IMG/VR virus record: IMGVR_UViG_3300030329_002366 | Location: 1-29,735 of that record | From: a virus | Strand: one strand, 5' to 3' | Length of the DNA: 29,735 bases | In this document: positions 23,843 through 29,269 of the stretch, one piece after another | How the letters are laid out: the number at the start of each line of letters is the position of its first letter | How positions within the stretch are numbered: position 1 is the first letter of the stretch | Notes under the pieces: model-generated | Told to the model about the DNA's origin: nothing | The model's input: only the letters and a program-made list of their open reading frames with translations | Database searches by the model: none | Made by a program: the position numbers and the translations under genes

Positions 23843-23971
23843 TTATTTATAAAAGGGAAAATACTTTGTTTTTAGGCTTTTCCTATACTTAACAGCTTCT
23901 TTCTTAGTTAAGAACTTCTTGCCATTACATATATAAATAAAGCCTAATTCTTGCTTAATTTCTTTGTTCAT
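23843..23971 (-). CDS. Small basic protein (42 aa)
   Basis: The ATG at 23971 overlaps the RusA stop as ATGA, and the frame ends at TAA 23843. The product begins MNKEIKQELGFIYICNGKKF and continues LTKKEAVKYRKSLK, a short beta-hairpin plus basic helix like small phage proteins found near terminase genes. It is basic and without a membrane segment. Its coupling to rusA supports it. Confidence 0.65.
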   Translation of the reverse strand: MNKEIKQELGFIYICNGKKFLTKKEAVKYRKSLKTKYFPFYK

Positions 23972-24378
23972 TTAAAATCTGTTATTATTATTTCTACATA
24001 AGGTTCTTGATATTCATCACAATATTGTTTTGTTGCTACTAAGCTAATTACCAAACTATCATCAGATAAAACTTGGCTATCAACTAATACATCTAAATAG
24101 AACTTTGCAAAATTATCAATATCACCAATTCTTCCTATTGGGTATTTAGGTGCTGATGGTTTTAAATCATACTTATTATAATGAGATTTAGGTCTACCTA
24201 TATAAAAATTCATCTCTAATACAACTGCATTATCAAAAGGTTTCTCCATAAACTGGTCTACTATTAGTGGTATTACTTTCTTCTTATCCTTTGATGATGG
24301 ATCATAAGTACCCCACTTGCTATGCCTATGTCTTTTCTGTGAATATACTGAGCCTTCTATTTTTATGTATTTAGTCAT
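23968..24378 (-). CDS. rusA: RusA-type Holliday junction resolvase
   Basis: This encodes 136 residues. It shows the RusA pattern: an N-terminal K-rich part with YDPSSKDKK, then 'IGRIGDIDNFAKFYLDVL' and VLSDDSLV, with D86, D88 and D106/D107 matching the metal-binding acidic residues of E. coli RusA (D70, D72, D91). RusA cuts four-way junctions made during recombination and can clear branched DNA before packaging. It lies between the Mom-like gene and the terminases. The ATG at 24378 has no clear ribosome site and sits next to an inverted repeat. Confidence 0.88.
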   Translation of the reverse strand: MTKYIKIEGSVYSQKRHRHSKWGTYDPSSKDKKKVIPLIVDQFMEKPFDNAVVLEMNFYIGRPKSHYNKYDLKPSAPKYPIGRIGDIDNFAKFYLDVLVDSQVLSDDSLVISLVATKQYCDEYQEPYVEIIITDFK

Positions 24379-24381
24379 TGA

Positions 24382-24452
24382 GCCACATTTTGGAACTGCC
24401 CCAAACCCTTTGTAATGGTATTACAACATATCTCTCTTGATACTTATGTGGC
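24382..24452 (-). promoter_or_regulatory. Nested inverted repeats before rusA
   Basis: GCCACAT (24446-24452 on the minus strand) can pair with ATGTGGC (24382-24388), bracketing a perfect 17-nt palindrome TTGTAAT-ACC-ATTACAA at 24410-24426. The outer arm lies in the last codons of the Mom-like gene and the inner end is 3 nt before the rusA ATG, which lacks a ribosome site. It may be a translational control hairpin or a protein-binding palindrome. Confidence 0.5.
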
Positions 24453-25181
24453 ATTGTTTCTTTTTGGGTATTCAAGTTGTTTGTGTTTAAATATTTTTTT
24501 TGCCTTCCTGTTAAGAATTTTTATGTATTTATATCTTGGTAAAACTTTTCTTTTTTTAATGTTTTGAAAACTTTCCACATACATTTCTTTAATTTTTCCG
24601 TCTTGTTTGTTAAGCCATTTTTTTTTATGTGCAAATGACCTTTCACCTATCCACCTTCCATCAATATAGTACTCAAAGGATTTATTTGTTTTTCCATAAT
24701 ATGTAAAGTTAGATGCCTGATATATAGTTCCTATTTCCCCTGCTTCAGGAGTACAATATGCTACAATAGCAACTATTCCTTCTTTTTTTAAAATTTTACA
24801 ACTTTTAGAAATTAATTTTGTTGCTGTTCCAGTTGGTGTCCAATGAGAACAAGCACCTCTACTTAATTGAATTATAGACTTACTTCCAAAATCTTTTTCA
24901 AACAACCCTAAACTTCTCACTTGTGGCTGTGCATAAACTAAAGCACCACCAAGTGTGTCTTTAAAAAATATTCCGTGTGATACCCTGTAACCAAATCTGT
25001 GTGGCATAGATTTTAACCATTCATATTTCATTATTATTTTTTTTGCTTCCGTAAAAGATATTTGCCTAACTTTAGTTTCATTAAAGTTTTTAAATTCAGG
25101 ATATAAAGATTTACCAAAAAGATTATCACATTCACTATTTTTAACTTCATCTCTTAATATTTTTTGATGTGCTTTTTTCAT
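24444..25181 (-). CDS. mom: Mom-family DNA modification protein
   Basis: This encodes 245 residues from ATG 25181. The N-terminal ~40 residues are charged. Residues 41-85 include 'ISFTEAKKIIMKYEWLKSMP' and a strand GGALVYAQPQ. Residues 103-131 (SIIQLSRGACSHWTPTGTAT) and 138-163 (AIVAYCTPEAGEIGTIYQAS, NFTYYGK) are the strongest match I know to Mom of phage Mu, with its ELSR..., SYADP..GH.GTIYRA.N..YYG signature. Mom has a GNAT-like fold and converts adenine to N6-carbamoylmethyladenine, protecting phage DNA from host restriction. The basic C-terminal ~60 residues may bind DNA. The start has no clear ribosome site and is 12 nt after a strong hairpin. Assigned from recall of the family, not a search. 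Confidence 0.78.
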   Translation of the reverse strand: MKKAHQKILRDEVKNSECDNLFGKSLYPEFKNFNETKVRQISFTEAKKIIMKYEWLKSMPHRFGYRVSHGIFFKDTLGGALVYAQPQVRSLGLFEKDFGSKSIIQLSRGACSHWTPTGTATKLISKSCKILKKEGIVAIVAYCTPEAGEIGTIYQASNFTYYGKTNKSFEYYIDGRWIGERSFAHKKKWLNKQDGKIKEMYVESFQNIKKRKVLPRYKYIKILNRKAKKIFKHKQLEYPKRNNAT

Positions 25182-25193
25182 ATCTAAATTTTA

Positions 25194-25254
25194 GGGGGTC
25201 CATAGTGAGTAGTGTGGAGAAACAGTACAAGGGATGTATGTTTCATGAACCCCC
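25194..25254 (-). ncRNA. Structured RNA element upstream of the Mom-like gene
   Basis: In an AT-rich genome this intergenic stretch is GC-rich and self-complementary. On the minus-strand RNA, GGGGGUUCAU (25254-25245) pairs with AUGGACCCCC (25203-25194), ten pairs with one U-G. Directly inside, GAAACAUACA (25244-25235) pairs with UGUA-C-UGUUUC (25229-25219) around a UCCCU loop with one bulged C. Fifteen bases (25218-25204) stay unpaired. No U tract follows, so it is not a plain terminator. It ends 12 nt before the Mom-like ATG and may control its translation, or be an origin or packaging signal. Confidence 0.6.
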
Positions 25255-25265
25255 ATTATCATCCT

Positions 25266-26153
25266 TTAATCTATTTTACCTTCTATAACATCTTTTATTA
25301 AATAACCATATCTGTTTCTTATTTTATTTGGTGATTTATTTTTATAGTATTTACTTCTACCTCTTTTTCTTTCACACTCTCGACACAAAGATGCCAAATT
25401 ATCCATACTTGCTTTATTTTTACCATACATATCAAGAGATTTGGTTTTTTTACACTTAATACATTCTTTTTCTGTTCTGTTTTTAATTACCTCTAACATT
25501 TCTTTTCTCTTTTTAGCCCTATATTTATCCCTGCCCTTAAACAGCTTCATTTTTTGATCTTTACTTATGGTTGTTCCATACATATGGTGTAATGCTCCAG
25601 TTCTTCCATACATAGGGTTGTCTTTTCCTTTTCTACCCTTCCCATACATAGGATTTTTTTTGCCCCTTATATCCCTTGAACCAATTTGATGTTTTTTATT
25701 ATAAGCATCTATAATCATTTTATCAGTTGGATTTCTCCACTTTTCTTTCATAGCTAAACTTCTTTTAATATTTCTGTCTTTTGGCTCAATCTTACCTGAA
25801 TTGATTTCACTTAATTGTATACAAACATCTTCAGTTACTTTAAAACCAATATCTTCACCACTTTGACAATTATATCCATATTTTCTATTTGTAGACTTGT
25901 TTTTAATTATGTGATTTGCCCTTAGTTTATAAAGTTTTTTCAGAGATAATGAAGAATCTATTTCTCTAAATATAAAACATTCTTTACCATATTTCCTTAT
26001 AGCTTTAGAAAGAGGTGTATTATAATTACCATTAGATTTGATTTTATTTGTAGCAAAGTATAGCTTGTTGCACCTCGCTGTTTTTAACAAACCTACTGTC
26101 ATACCTATAAACACTTTATTGTTTTTTATATTTTCTATTTTATAAATTATCAT
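25266..26153 (-). CDS. GIY-YIG homing-endonuclease-like protein, active site degenerate
   Basis: This encodes 295 residues, with the ATG overlapping the replication gene stop (ATGA). Residues 1-98 follow the GIY-YIG nuclease plan: IIYKIENIKNNKVFIG, R27, LSKAIRKYGKECFIFREID and KYGYN (N95). Compared with I-TevI, the first Tyr (Y4), Arg and Asn are kept, but the second Tyr is F15 and the catalytic Glu (E75 in I-TevI) falls on Ala79 (LRANHI against ERENFW). Residues 164-193 are tandem NUMOD3 DNA-binding repeats (KKNPMYGKG, KDNPMYGR, HHMYG). Residues 231-260 form a C4 zinc motif (C231, C234, C257, C260). It resembles free-standing SegA-type mobile genes, here probably cutting poorly or not at all. 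Confidence 0.8.
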   Translation of the reverse strand: MIIYKIENIKNNKVFIGMTVGLLKTARCNKLYFATNKIKSNGNYNTPLSKAIRKYGKECFIFREIDSSLSLKKLYKLRANHIIKNKSTNRKYGYNCQSGEDIGFKVTEDVCIQLSEINSGKIEPKDRNIKRSLAMKEKWRNPTDKMIIDAYNKKHQIGSRDIRGKKNPMYGKGRKGKDNPMYGRTGALHHMYGTTISKDQKMKLFKGRDKYRAKKRKEMLEVIKNRTEKECIKCKKTKSLDMYGKNKASMDNLASLCRECERKRGRSKYYKNKSPNKIRNRYGYLIKDVIEGKID

Positions 26154-26899
26154 TTTATCCCCAATGCTTTTTTTCTATCTTCATCTGAAGCAACATTGCT
26201 TTCTGATTCTCTTAACCTGCGTTGCTGTGCCTGATAATCAGCCTCTATCCTTGCTTCCCTTTTAGCTATATCATCATCACTTGCTGCTTGAAATGTCATA
26301 TTACTATTAAACTTCTTTGCGTTCTTCTTCCATGTACTCATTCTTTTTCTGATATTGAAGATTGACCGTTGCTCAAATCTAAGCACCCTTCCACCATTAT
26401 CATTATATTCAGTCCAGTAATCTATAAAATCTTTCATCATTCCAGCATCTATGTGCATATCAAATACTTCTTTTTCTACTCTTTCAGCAAATTCTTTAAG
26501 CCTAACCTTAATATCTTTACCCTTTACTTTATCTTTGTCTTTAAGTCCTTTGTCAGTCTTATCTAAGTCTATATCATATTTTTTTAACTGTTTAATTACT
26601 GACTGATGAACTCTTACATTTGGATTTAATTCTTCACCATACTGGAATCTAATAAAAGAGTGTATAAACCATTTAGAATCACCTATATCAGTTATATGTT
26701 TTTCAAATGATTTTTTAACCTCATCTAAAGTATAAGGCTGCCCTATATCAAAAGACATTCTTTCAATATCTACCTCATAAATACCACTATGTGAGCAATT
26801 ACTCAGTAAATAAAACCATGCTAACTTTAATTTAGGTTCTAATTTTCTAAAATTTGCTTTTTGCCATATATCTGCATCCATAAATCTTTTCCTTGCCAT
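26150..26899 (-). CDS. DnaD-like replication initiator / replisome organiser
   Basis: This encodes 249 residues from ATG 26899 with AAAAGGAG upstream. The N-terminal ~100 residues, DADIWQKANFRKLEPKLKLA, WFYLLSNCSHSGIYEVDIER and 'SFDIGQPYTLDEVKKSFEKH', are the winged-helix domain found in phage replisome-organiser and DnaD-like proteins. A Lys/Asp-rich linker (about 110-130) is followed by 'MMKDFIDYWTEYNDNGGRVL' and a helical DNA-binding tail typical of the C-terminal part. It is the only replication initiator seen, so the host replisome must be recruited. No helicase or helicase loader is seen next to it. Confidence 0.75.
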   Translation of the reverse strand: MARKRFMDADIWQKANFRKLEPKLKLAWFYLLSNCSHSGIYEVDIERMSFDIGQPYTLDEVKKSFEKHITDIGDSKWFIHSFIRFQYGEELNPNVRVHQSVIKQLKKYDIDLDKTDKGLKDKDKVKGKDIKVRLKEFAERVEKEVFDMHIDAGMMKDFIDYWTEYNDNGGRVLRFEQRSIFNIRKRMSTWKKNAKKFNSNMTFQAASDDDIAKREARIEADYQAQQRRLRESESNVASDEDRKKALGIK

Positions 26900-26920
26900 A
26901 ATATGTTTCTCCTTTTATTC

Positions 26921-26942
26921 TCACTTTAATTATCCCTTGTTT
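26921..26942. repeat. 22-bp direct repeat, copy 1
   Basis: Bases 26921-26942 are identical to 27211-27232. On the minus strand the repeat contains an AAGGGATAA stop context and AAAGTG. This copy covers the C-terminal codons and stop of the 94-residue gene. The other copy covers the end of the ribbon-helix-helix gene and the GTG start of that same 94-residue gene. The flanking bases differ on both sides. Confidence 0.9.
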
Positions 26943-27214: not shown

Positions 27215-27232
27215 TTTAATTATCCCTTGTTT
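27211..27232. repeat. 22-bp direct repeat, copy 2
   Basis: Identical to 26921-26942. This copy supplies the ribosome site (AAGGGA), stop of the ribbon-helix-helix gene and GTG start of the 94-residue gene. Confidence 0.9.
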
Positions 27233-27366
27233 TTAATGTAGTAATTTATTGATTTTTCTATTACAGAACTAATTGATTCATCATTAAGTGCTGCAAATAT
27301 TCTTACTTTTTGATGCACATCTTTTGATAGTTGCACACTCTTACATACTTTAGTATTCGATTTCAA
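27220..27366 (-). CDS. Ribbon-helix-helix DNA-binding protein (48 aa), TTG start
   Basis: The frame opens at TTG 27366, which has AAAGGA seven bases upstream, overlaps the end of the zinc-finger gene, and closes with TAA at 27220. No ATG fits. The product has a beta strand (KVCKSVQLSKDVHQKVRIFA) then two helices (ALNDESISSVIEKSINYYIK), the plan of Arc/MetJ ribbon-helix-helix regulators, including VQLSKDVHQKVRIFA and a turn before S-I-S-S-V-I-E. These bind DNA as dimers. It is the only candidate transcription regulator of this type here. It is too short for default gene callers, and its start codon is non-ATG. Confidence 0.75.
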   Translation of the reverse strand: MKSNTKVCKSVQLSKDVHQKVRIFAALNDESISSVIEKSINYYIKNKG

Positions 27367-27529
27367 ACCACGTTCCTTTCAATAATTCTCTTTTTTTCCT
27401 TTGTCTTTCCCTTGATTCTATCTTTTTACATGGTCTGCATTGCCCTAACATATAACCAGCTTGTATAATAGCATCTTTTGACTTAGGGATTATTGTTTTA
27501 CCACAATCATTACATTTCTTTGTTTTCAT
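27350..27529 (-). CDS. Small CxxC zinc-finger protein, Com-like candidate
   Basis: I choose ATG 27529, which overlaps the upstream stop as ATGA with GGGAA upstream, over a TTG three codons earlier. The 59-residue product has C6-x2-C9 and C31-x2-C34 with a basic helix (KKIESRERQRKKRELL), so it is a small zinc-finger nucleic-acid binder. Mu Com, which activates mom translation by binding its mRNA leader, is likewise about 60 residues with two CxxC pairs. There is no detailed sequence match, and this gene is three genes upstream of the Mom-like gene, so the analogy is weak. General zinc-finger phage proteins of this size are common. Confidence 0.65.
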   Translation of the reverse strand: MKTKKCNDCGKTIIPKSKDAIIQAGYMLGQCRPCKKIESRERQRKKRELLKGTWFEIEY

Positions 27530-27909
27530 ACTTCCCAATATCCTTTAAATTTCTTTTTCTTAGATTCAAAACCAAAACCAAGTTGCTCTTGCGTATCAGG
27601 AAAATGTGCAGATTCAAGTGCAGTAGCTGCTTCATTAATATGCTTAACTCTTGATCTTAATTGTTTAATAGTATGAGATGCTTCTACCTTGTTTCTTGCA
27701 TAGAAATATCCTGAACTATCTGAGCATATTGGTTTCTTATCATATACTCTTAAATAATGCACTATTTCCCTAACATTAACACCACTTATATCAAAGGTTC
27801 TTTCAATGTGTCTTGATAGTATAGGGTTCTCTTTCTTATGTCTTTCAATAAGGTCCAAAACCCTATACAAACATCTTTGAGATTTCTTTGATAAAGATTG
27901 CTTAGACAC
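27526..27909 (-). CDS. Winged-helix / helix-turn-helix phage protein
   Basis: This encodes 127 residues from GTG 27909, overlapping the recombinase gene stop by 8 nt. The segment 'LSRHIERTFDISGVNVREIV' is a helix-turn-helix, followed by HYLRVYDKKPICSDSSGYFY and 'VEASHTIKQLRSRVKHINEA'. This layout, an HTH, a short beta wing with GYFYA, and a long helix, is found in small phage proteins near replication genes. A DNA-binding role, possibly helping replication or control, is inferred. Confidence 0.7.
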   Translation of the reverse strand: MSKQSLSKKSQRCLYRVLDLIERHKKENPILSRHIERTFDISGVNVREIVHYLRVYDKKPICSDSSGYFYARNKVEASHTIKQLRSRVKHINEAATALESAHFPDTQEQLGFGFESKKKKFKGYWEV

Positions 27910-28712: not shown

Positions 28713-28867
28713 TAATCTTCCTCCCTACTTGCTACTACTATTAAACCAAAAGCAGGAAATAATAAAAATGCTATTGGTATGAAATTTAATCCTCTAACCA
28801 TGTGATTCAAACATAATGCTACTAATAAACTGAACATTATTATAGGTATTATTAGTGTTTTTTTCAT
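28712..28867 (-). CDS. Small two-span membrane protein (51 aa)
   Basis: The ATG at 28867 has GGGAGAA upstream, and the frame ends at TAA 28712 in a TAATG overlap. The product has two membrane spans: KKTLIIPIIMFSLLVALCL near the N-terminus, then NFIPIAFLLFPAFGLIVVA, with a short SREED tail. Early small membrane proteins of this kind may act in superinfection exclusion or host takeover, but there is no specific evidence. It is shorter than the usual gene-calling cut-off. Confidence 0.65.
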   Translation of the reverse strand: MKKTLIIPIIMFSLLVALCLNHMVRGLNFIPIAFLLFPAFGLIVVASREED

Positions 28868-28876
28868 GTTTCTCCC

Positions 28877-29233: not shown

Positions 29234-29269
29234 TTGTTTCTCCTTGTTATTATTAAAACTCACATAAGT

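Follow-up and report, generated by a model that had tools for sequence, protein, structure and literature searches.

Within the window, the 29,735-nt stretch of viral DNA analysed here (IMG/VR record IMGVR_UViG_3300030329_002366), a strongly structured leader separates a homing-endonuclease-like gene from a Mom-like gene. This raises the question of what the structure controls, and in particular whether it is a switch for the Mom-like gene, as the initial annotation had suggested by analogy with phage Mu. We find that the stem-loop is genuine and is conserved as an RNA structure in a lineage of uncultured phages. On the basis of its sequence, we propose that it is a regulatory RNA in the early mRNA, located in the 3' UTR of the replisome-organiser-like gene rep, and that it probably damps rep and other early genes by antisense pairing. 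Structure in the leader of a Mom gene does not by itself imply a Mom switch.

The coordinates of the element, its proposed targets, and the surrounding genes are collected in Table 1. The outer stem (GGGGGUUCAU/AUGGACCCCC) comprises 10 bp, including one U-G, while the inner stem (GAAACAUAC/GUA(c)UGUUUC) comprises 9 bp and one bulged C and carries the loop AUCCCUU. Folding of the minus strand bears out the architecture originally described, namely a 10-bp outer stem, an inner stem, and 15 unpaired bases. The stem and the Mom ATG are indeed 12 nt apart, as reported; in the related contig L037 the corresponding distance is 10 nt. The 106-nt stretch has a minimum free energy of -24.2 kcal/mol (z -2.4; 4 of 200 shuffles equally good) and the trimmed 67-nt element scores better against its shuffles (z -4.3; 1 of 200 as good). 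A covariance-model search for repeats elsewhere indicates that the element is single-copy in the window genome. It has no gathering-score match to any Rfam family.

Table 1. Positions of the structured element, its antisense segments, their candidate target sites, and neighbouring genes. Coordinates refer to the window unless a contig is named.
Feature	Position	Strand	Basis or remark
Structured element (two stacked stems)	25194..25254	-	Fold; covariance models R1/R2 match 25191-25257
Outer stem 5' arm GGGGGUUCAU	25245..25254	-	Fold
Outer stem 3' arm AUGGACCCCC	25194..25203	-	Fold and covariation
Inner stem 5' arm GAAACAUAC	25236..25244	-	Fold; contains GAAACA, also found in the target ribosome-binding site
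Inner stem 3' arm GUACUGUUUC, one bulged C	25219..25228	-	Fold
3' bulge, 15 nt, UCCACACUACUCACU	25204..25218	-	Unpaired in fold
Antisense segment A' AUCCCUUGU, apical loop and its 3' edge	25227..25235	-	Complement of ACAAGGGAU in rep leader
Antisense segment B' UGUUUCUCC, inner-stem 3' arm and bulge start	25216..25224	-	Complement of GGAGAAACA
Antisense segment C' CUCACU, in 3' bulge	25204-25209	-	Complement of AGUGAG in rep leader
Target site A ACAAGGGAU, rep leader	26932..26940	-	
Target site B GGAGAAACA, rep ribosome-binding site	26904..26912	-	
Target site C AGUGAG, rep leader	26920..26925	-	
GGAGAAACA at ribosome-binding site of early 118-aa ORF	29235..29243	-	
GGAGAAACA at ribosome-binding site of early 51-aa ORF	28867..28875	-	AGGGATA just upstream
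ACAAGGGAT (site A type), upstream of GTG start of early 94-aa gene	27222..27230	-	
rep, replisome-organiser-like, putative main target	26150..26899	-	PHROG 19415 (function unknown); size, position, and sequence pattern suggest the role
Homing-endonuclease-like gene, an insert separating rep from the element	25266..26153	-	PHROGs homing endonuclease, E 3.8e-14
Mom-like gene, inserted between element and rusA	24444..25181	-	Pfam Mom, E 2.8e-31
RusA-like resolvase gene (rusA)	23968..24378	-	Pfam RusA, E 1.7e-15; follows element in relatives without a modification gene
Zinc-ribbon gene	27350-27538	-	
Zinc-ribbon gene, L033	184-369		
Zinc-ribbon gene, L068	2371-2562		
Zinc-ribbon gene, L093	2041-2229		

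Copies of the element were retrieved from related phages. A terminase query returned nine related contigs, including L003, in which the element is 85% identical and lies directly behind rep without an endonuclease gene. Queries with rep, rusA, and a DNA pattern yielded further copies in L008, L033-L037, L039, L054, L055/L057, L086, and L087/L088/L090. L068 is a more distant carrier (rep 39% identical) and L093 carries a divergent form (rep 37%). Some of these contigs are fragments, and that of L086 ends inside the element. A single-protein query with Mom and a nucleotide search of phages returned nothing or noise. Only the two stretches already known were real among the 22 that matched the two-part pattern GTTTCTCC...TACTCAC, and a pattern scan of bacterial and archaeal genome contigs recovered no copy of the element.

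All copies contain the two stacked stems and lie immediately 3' of rep or of a gene inserted after it. At least five unrelated outer-stem sequences preserve the fold (GGGGGUUCAU, AUGGCUGUCUAU, UGGAAGGUGCAU, AUGGGUAGGGUGU, and UGGGUGGCAGUGU). In a model-based alignment, 98.3% of cells are paired and nine pairs show double-sided change, though most copies represent one lineage and these changes reflect a handful of events, not dozens. The covariation score was reached in none of 500 shuffles, and slid controls collapse. The initial annotation had looked to covariation in both stems as support for RNA control, and this is what the relatives display. Because they show the same place, the same fold, and covarying stems, the structure is not a product of chance. 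A covariance model built without L087 detects the element of that contig (E 9e-5 in ~21 kb). L068 is not separated from noise by model R2; both it and L093 were assigned by position, fold, and target complementarity, not by covariance model.

The element also reveals its strand. On the mRNA strand, every wobble in the covarying outer helix is G-U, with no A-C pair, and this strand outperforms its complement in folding relative to shuffles in all 11 copies tested. As a result, the acting molecule is most likely an RNA of the mRNA strand.

Its genetic context varies on both sides. The inserts between rep and the element are the endonuclease gene in the window and L008, and small genes in L036, L037, L039, L055, and L087. 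The next gene downstream is mom in the window and L037; a 50-aa gene followed by a second Mom family member in L036; an MT-A70 gene in L003, L054, and L055; and a C5-methylase gene in L008 and L087/L088. In L033, L034, L035, L039, and L068, rusA follows directly, with no modification gene. We infer that the element resides in the 3' UTR of rep in the ancestral arrangement, with the labels "rep" and "early" themselves assigned from gene order and sequence character. Mom and the other DNA-modification genes would be later insertions just downstream of the element.

The candidate targets of the RNA are suggested by its sequence complementarity to early leaders. UGUUUCUCC, which is invariant in the element, is the exact reverse complement of GGAGAAACA. 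The latter occurs three times on the mRNA strand of the window; all three occurrences occupy Shine-Dalgarno positions of early genes, including that of rep. At ribosome-binding-site positions, GGAGAAACA is found at 20 sites in six element contigs and at none in six element-less relatives (~150 kb each side), a comparison in which kinship bears on the presence of both element and motif. Upstream of the same early ribosome-binding sites lie AGGGAU and GUGAG, which are the complements of the loop AUCCCU and the bulge CUCAC, respectively. Outside the L068 genome, AGGGA or GTGA lies at most 40 nt upstream in nearly all these early leaders; they are seldom present at later GGAGAAA sites. In L055, the leader GUGAGUAAAGGAGAAACAAUG and the element sequence UGUUUCUCCAUACUCAC can be read as complementary over 16 pairs with one small internal loop.

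The match between the element core and the rep leader was compared with shuffled and genomic controls. Two complementary stretches of 7-14 nt are present in every phage with a rep start except L068, of which the UCUCC/GGAGA part is expected with any Shine-Dalgarno sequence. Shuffled elements or leaders were as good as the real rep match in 0-20 of 2000 trials. When 50-nt segments of nine genomes were scanned on the mRNA strand only, the element ranked first as a match to the rep leader in seven; in the window, none of 9838 other segments matched as well. The exceptions are L086, where the contig ends inside the element, and L087, where the match is 8+7 nt and 19 other segments are equally good. 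A ranking of all genes by complementarity places rep and the early genes with the GGAGAAACA motif on top.

Element and target also appear to have changed together. In L093, the element contains UUGAUCUCC and UAACCUUAACCUUU and the leader GGAGAUCAA and AAAGGUUAAGGUUA, a compensatory change that keeps full complementarity, including a 14-nt match. The 9-mers GGAGATCAA and TTGATCTCC each occur once in the 4.4-kb locus. The element of L068 is devoid of A' and C', and the early leaders of this phage are largely devoid of A and C sites; its rep leader match of 8 nt is not significant, while its other early genes match by 9-13 nt. Such joint change lends itself to clean compensatory-mutation experiments and offers a route to detecting this logic in other settings.

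The modelled binding energies are the main quantitative weakness of the antisense proposal. Predicted values are -9.0 kcal/mol for the window, -5.6 kcal/mol for L054, and -8.5 kcal/mol for L086. They are near zero for L093 and for rep of L068, and the matched pair is not always favoured.

On this proposal, the element RNA, either within the same transcript or processed to a small RNA, would pair with early leaders, cover the Shine-Dalgarno sequence, and thereby damp the translation of early genes, rep among them. The seed may be the bulge (UCC...CUCAC), which is exposed. The inner stem would then open by strand exchange, given that its 5' arm GAAACAUA copies the target (GAAACA). The sites are ordered A-C-B in the leader and A'-B'-C' in the element; hence a linear duplex can accommodate B and C, leaving only a separate loop contact for A. 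Co-folds of the window and L054 contain the linear duplex of B' and C' with B and C; A' would make the loop contact. Early shut-off or replication dosage control by RNA in an uncultured phage lineage could be tested with simple reporters.

Well-known phage antisense RNAs, for example C4, serve temperate-phage immunity. In C4 of P1/P7, the b' loop covers the ribosome-binding site, the a' loop binds upstream, and the RNA is cut from a longer transcript (PMC5320573). The element resembles C4 (RF01695) in that it is phage-borne, structured, and ~70-80 nt long. In addition, one of its segments is complementary to a ribosome-binding site and another, distinct segment to a site further upstream. However, C4 consists of three stem-loops and is processed by RNase P, whereas the present RNA has two stacked stems and a 3' bulge, is carried by the 3' UTR of its putative main target on the same strand, and apparently addresses several early targets, including a replication gene. 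Searches of the element and the whole record with the Rfam C4 model gave no match at the gathering score and none at E up to 10. In icaR of Staphylococcus aureus, a C-rich 3'-UTR motif pairs with the Shine-Dalgarno region of its own mRNA and blocks translation (PMC3868564). The element parallels this in that the gene it follows has a Shine-Dalgarno region complementary to a motif in its own 3' UTR, but icaR is one bacterial mRNA, in contrast to a compact covarying phage hairpin with two or three pairing segments and several targets. RNase III cleavage of the paired RNA is a further trait of icaR-type autoregulation. OppZ-type RNAs, which derive from mRNA 3' ends and repress their own synthesis by base pairing (PMC7398697), provide a further parallel for the autorepression that we propose from sequence. 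The element is thus apparently a same-strand, 3'-UTR, multi-target relative in kind of C4 and icaR. We lean, by a small measure, towards regarding it as an undescribed class of phage RNA: a covarying two-stem RNA of the rep 3' UTR that would act as a multi-target anti-Shine-Dalgarno, shut down an early regulon sharing an extended ribosome-binding-site motif, and co-evolve with its targets.

Several other explanations were considered. The initial annotation had allowed for an origin or packaging site, and an origin, operator, or packaging site acting at the DNA level, with a protein binding the same motifs in the leaders and, inverted, in the element, would suit the adjacent replication gene; a protein reading double-stranded DNA would also make the motifs co-vary between both places. 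Both the strand specificity of the G-U pairing and the anti-Shine-Dalgarno complementarity speak against this alternative, which we consider unlikely. Several genes within the early operon carry the motifs at their Shine-Dalgarno positions. The two arms covary in the manner of a folded single strand, in which G-U pairs occur and A-C pairs do not, and L087 pairs with its target via a G-U wobble that a shared DNA motif would not explain.

It is also rather improbable that the element is mainly an RNase III-type processing or stability hairpin, or a put-type elongation RNA between early and later genes, with its resemblance to ribosome-binding sites secondary. Such a role would suit the irregular shape of the hairpin, its asymmetric loop, and its location between two gene modules of a polycistronic transcript. 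However, it leaves unexplained the conserved loop and bulge, complementary to early leaders, as well as the joint change in L093.

Control of the Com type, in which translation of the Mom-like gene is turned on by a phage RNA-binding protein attached to the structured leader, now seems very unlikely. The short spacing to mom in the window and L037 favours it, as do the DNA-modification genes that often follow the element and the ~60-aa zinc-ribbon proteins (CxxC...CxxC, basic tail) common to these phages. In addition, the element does lie upstream of the Mom-like genes of relatives, directly in L037 and with the 50-aa gene between in L036. The likeness to the Mu com/mom leader is that of a structured RNA just upstream of a Mom-family gene. 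In Mu, however, the mom start codon is inside the inhibitory stem and Com recognizes the RNA motif CC(N)2-3GAG (PMC6483171). Here, reading of the element sequence finds no CC(N)2-3GAG, and the Mom AUG is outside the stem and ~69% unpaired in the window. Of 13 cases, 12 have the AUG of the next gene beyond the stem, on which ground we rejected start-codon sequestration; the one case with the AUG inside is L093, where a zinc-ribbon gene follows the element and starts within the outer stem. The AUG is also poorly exposed in L068. Several relatives carry the element before rusA with no modification gene. A Pfam search with the small zinc-ribbon proteins of these phages gave no Com-family match and their gene is also present in relatives without the element, and the zinc-ribbon protein was therefore rejected as a Com-like partner. 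The conserved unpaired sequence, antisense to early-gene leaders, points to a different target. The observation that the Mom-like gene lacks a ribosome-binding site, unlike most genes here, is only partly right: a crude scan found no Shine-Dalgarno-like string for 10 of 34 genes, including the neighbours rusA and terS.

A leader peptide is hardly credible and was rejected: a 21-codon ORF (MGVHETYIPCTVSPHYSLWTP) in frame with mom, with an ATG preceded by AGGA, spans the hairpin exactly in the window, but L003 and L086 have no ATG there and 1-nt indels break the frame in other copies, which keep the RNA motifs instead.

Some features of the neighbouring genes are also of note. The homing-endonuclease-like genes of the window (25266-26153) and L008 (314-1231) are 31% identical and are positioned precisely at the stop codon of rep, with an ATGA overlap; L003 and L033-L035 do not have them. 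Behind the insert, L039 and L008 still retain pieces of what was formerly the 3' end of rep. A 27-codon ORF (MPHKYQERYVVIPLQRVWGSSKMWLND; window 24371-24454, minus strand) overlaps the end of mom and is kept behind the Mom genes of L036 (~3217) and L037 (~3133), with a related stretch in L035 and L055; it looks protein-coding and seems to travel with mom. The MT-A70 gene of L003 (696-1222) is broken by an apparent frameshift at an eight-G run and is intact in L054 and L055. In L093, a C5-methylase gene (571-1185) of the kind seen behind the element in L008 and L087/L088 is located upstream of rep, which indicates that modification genes move around the region.
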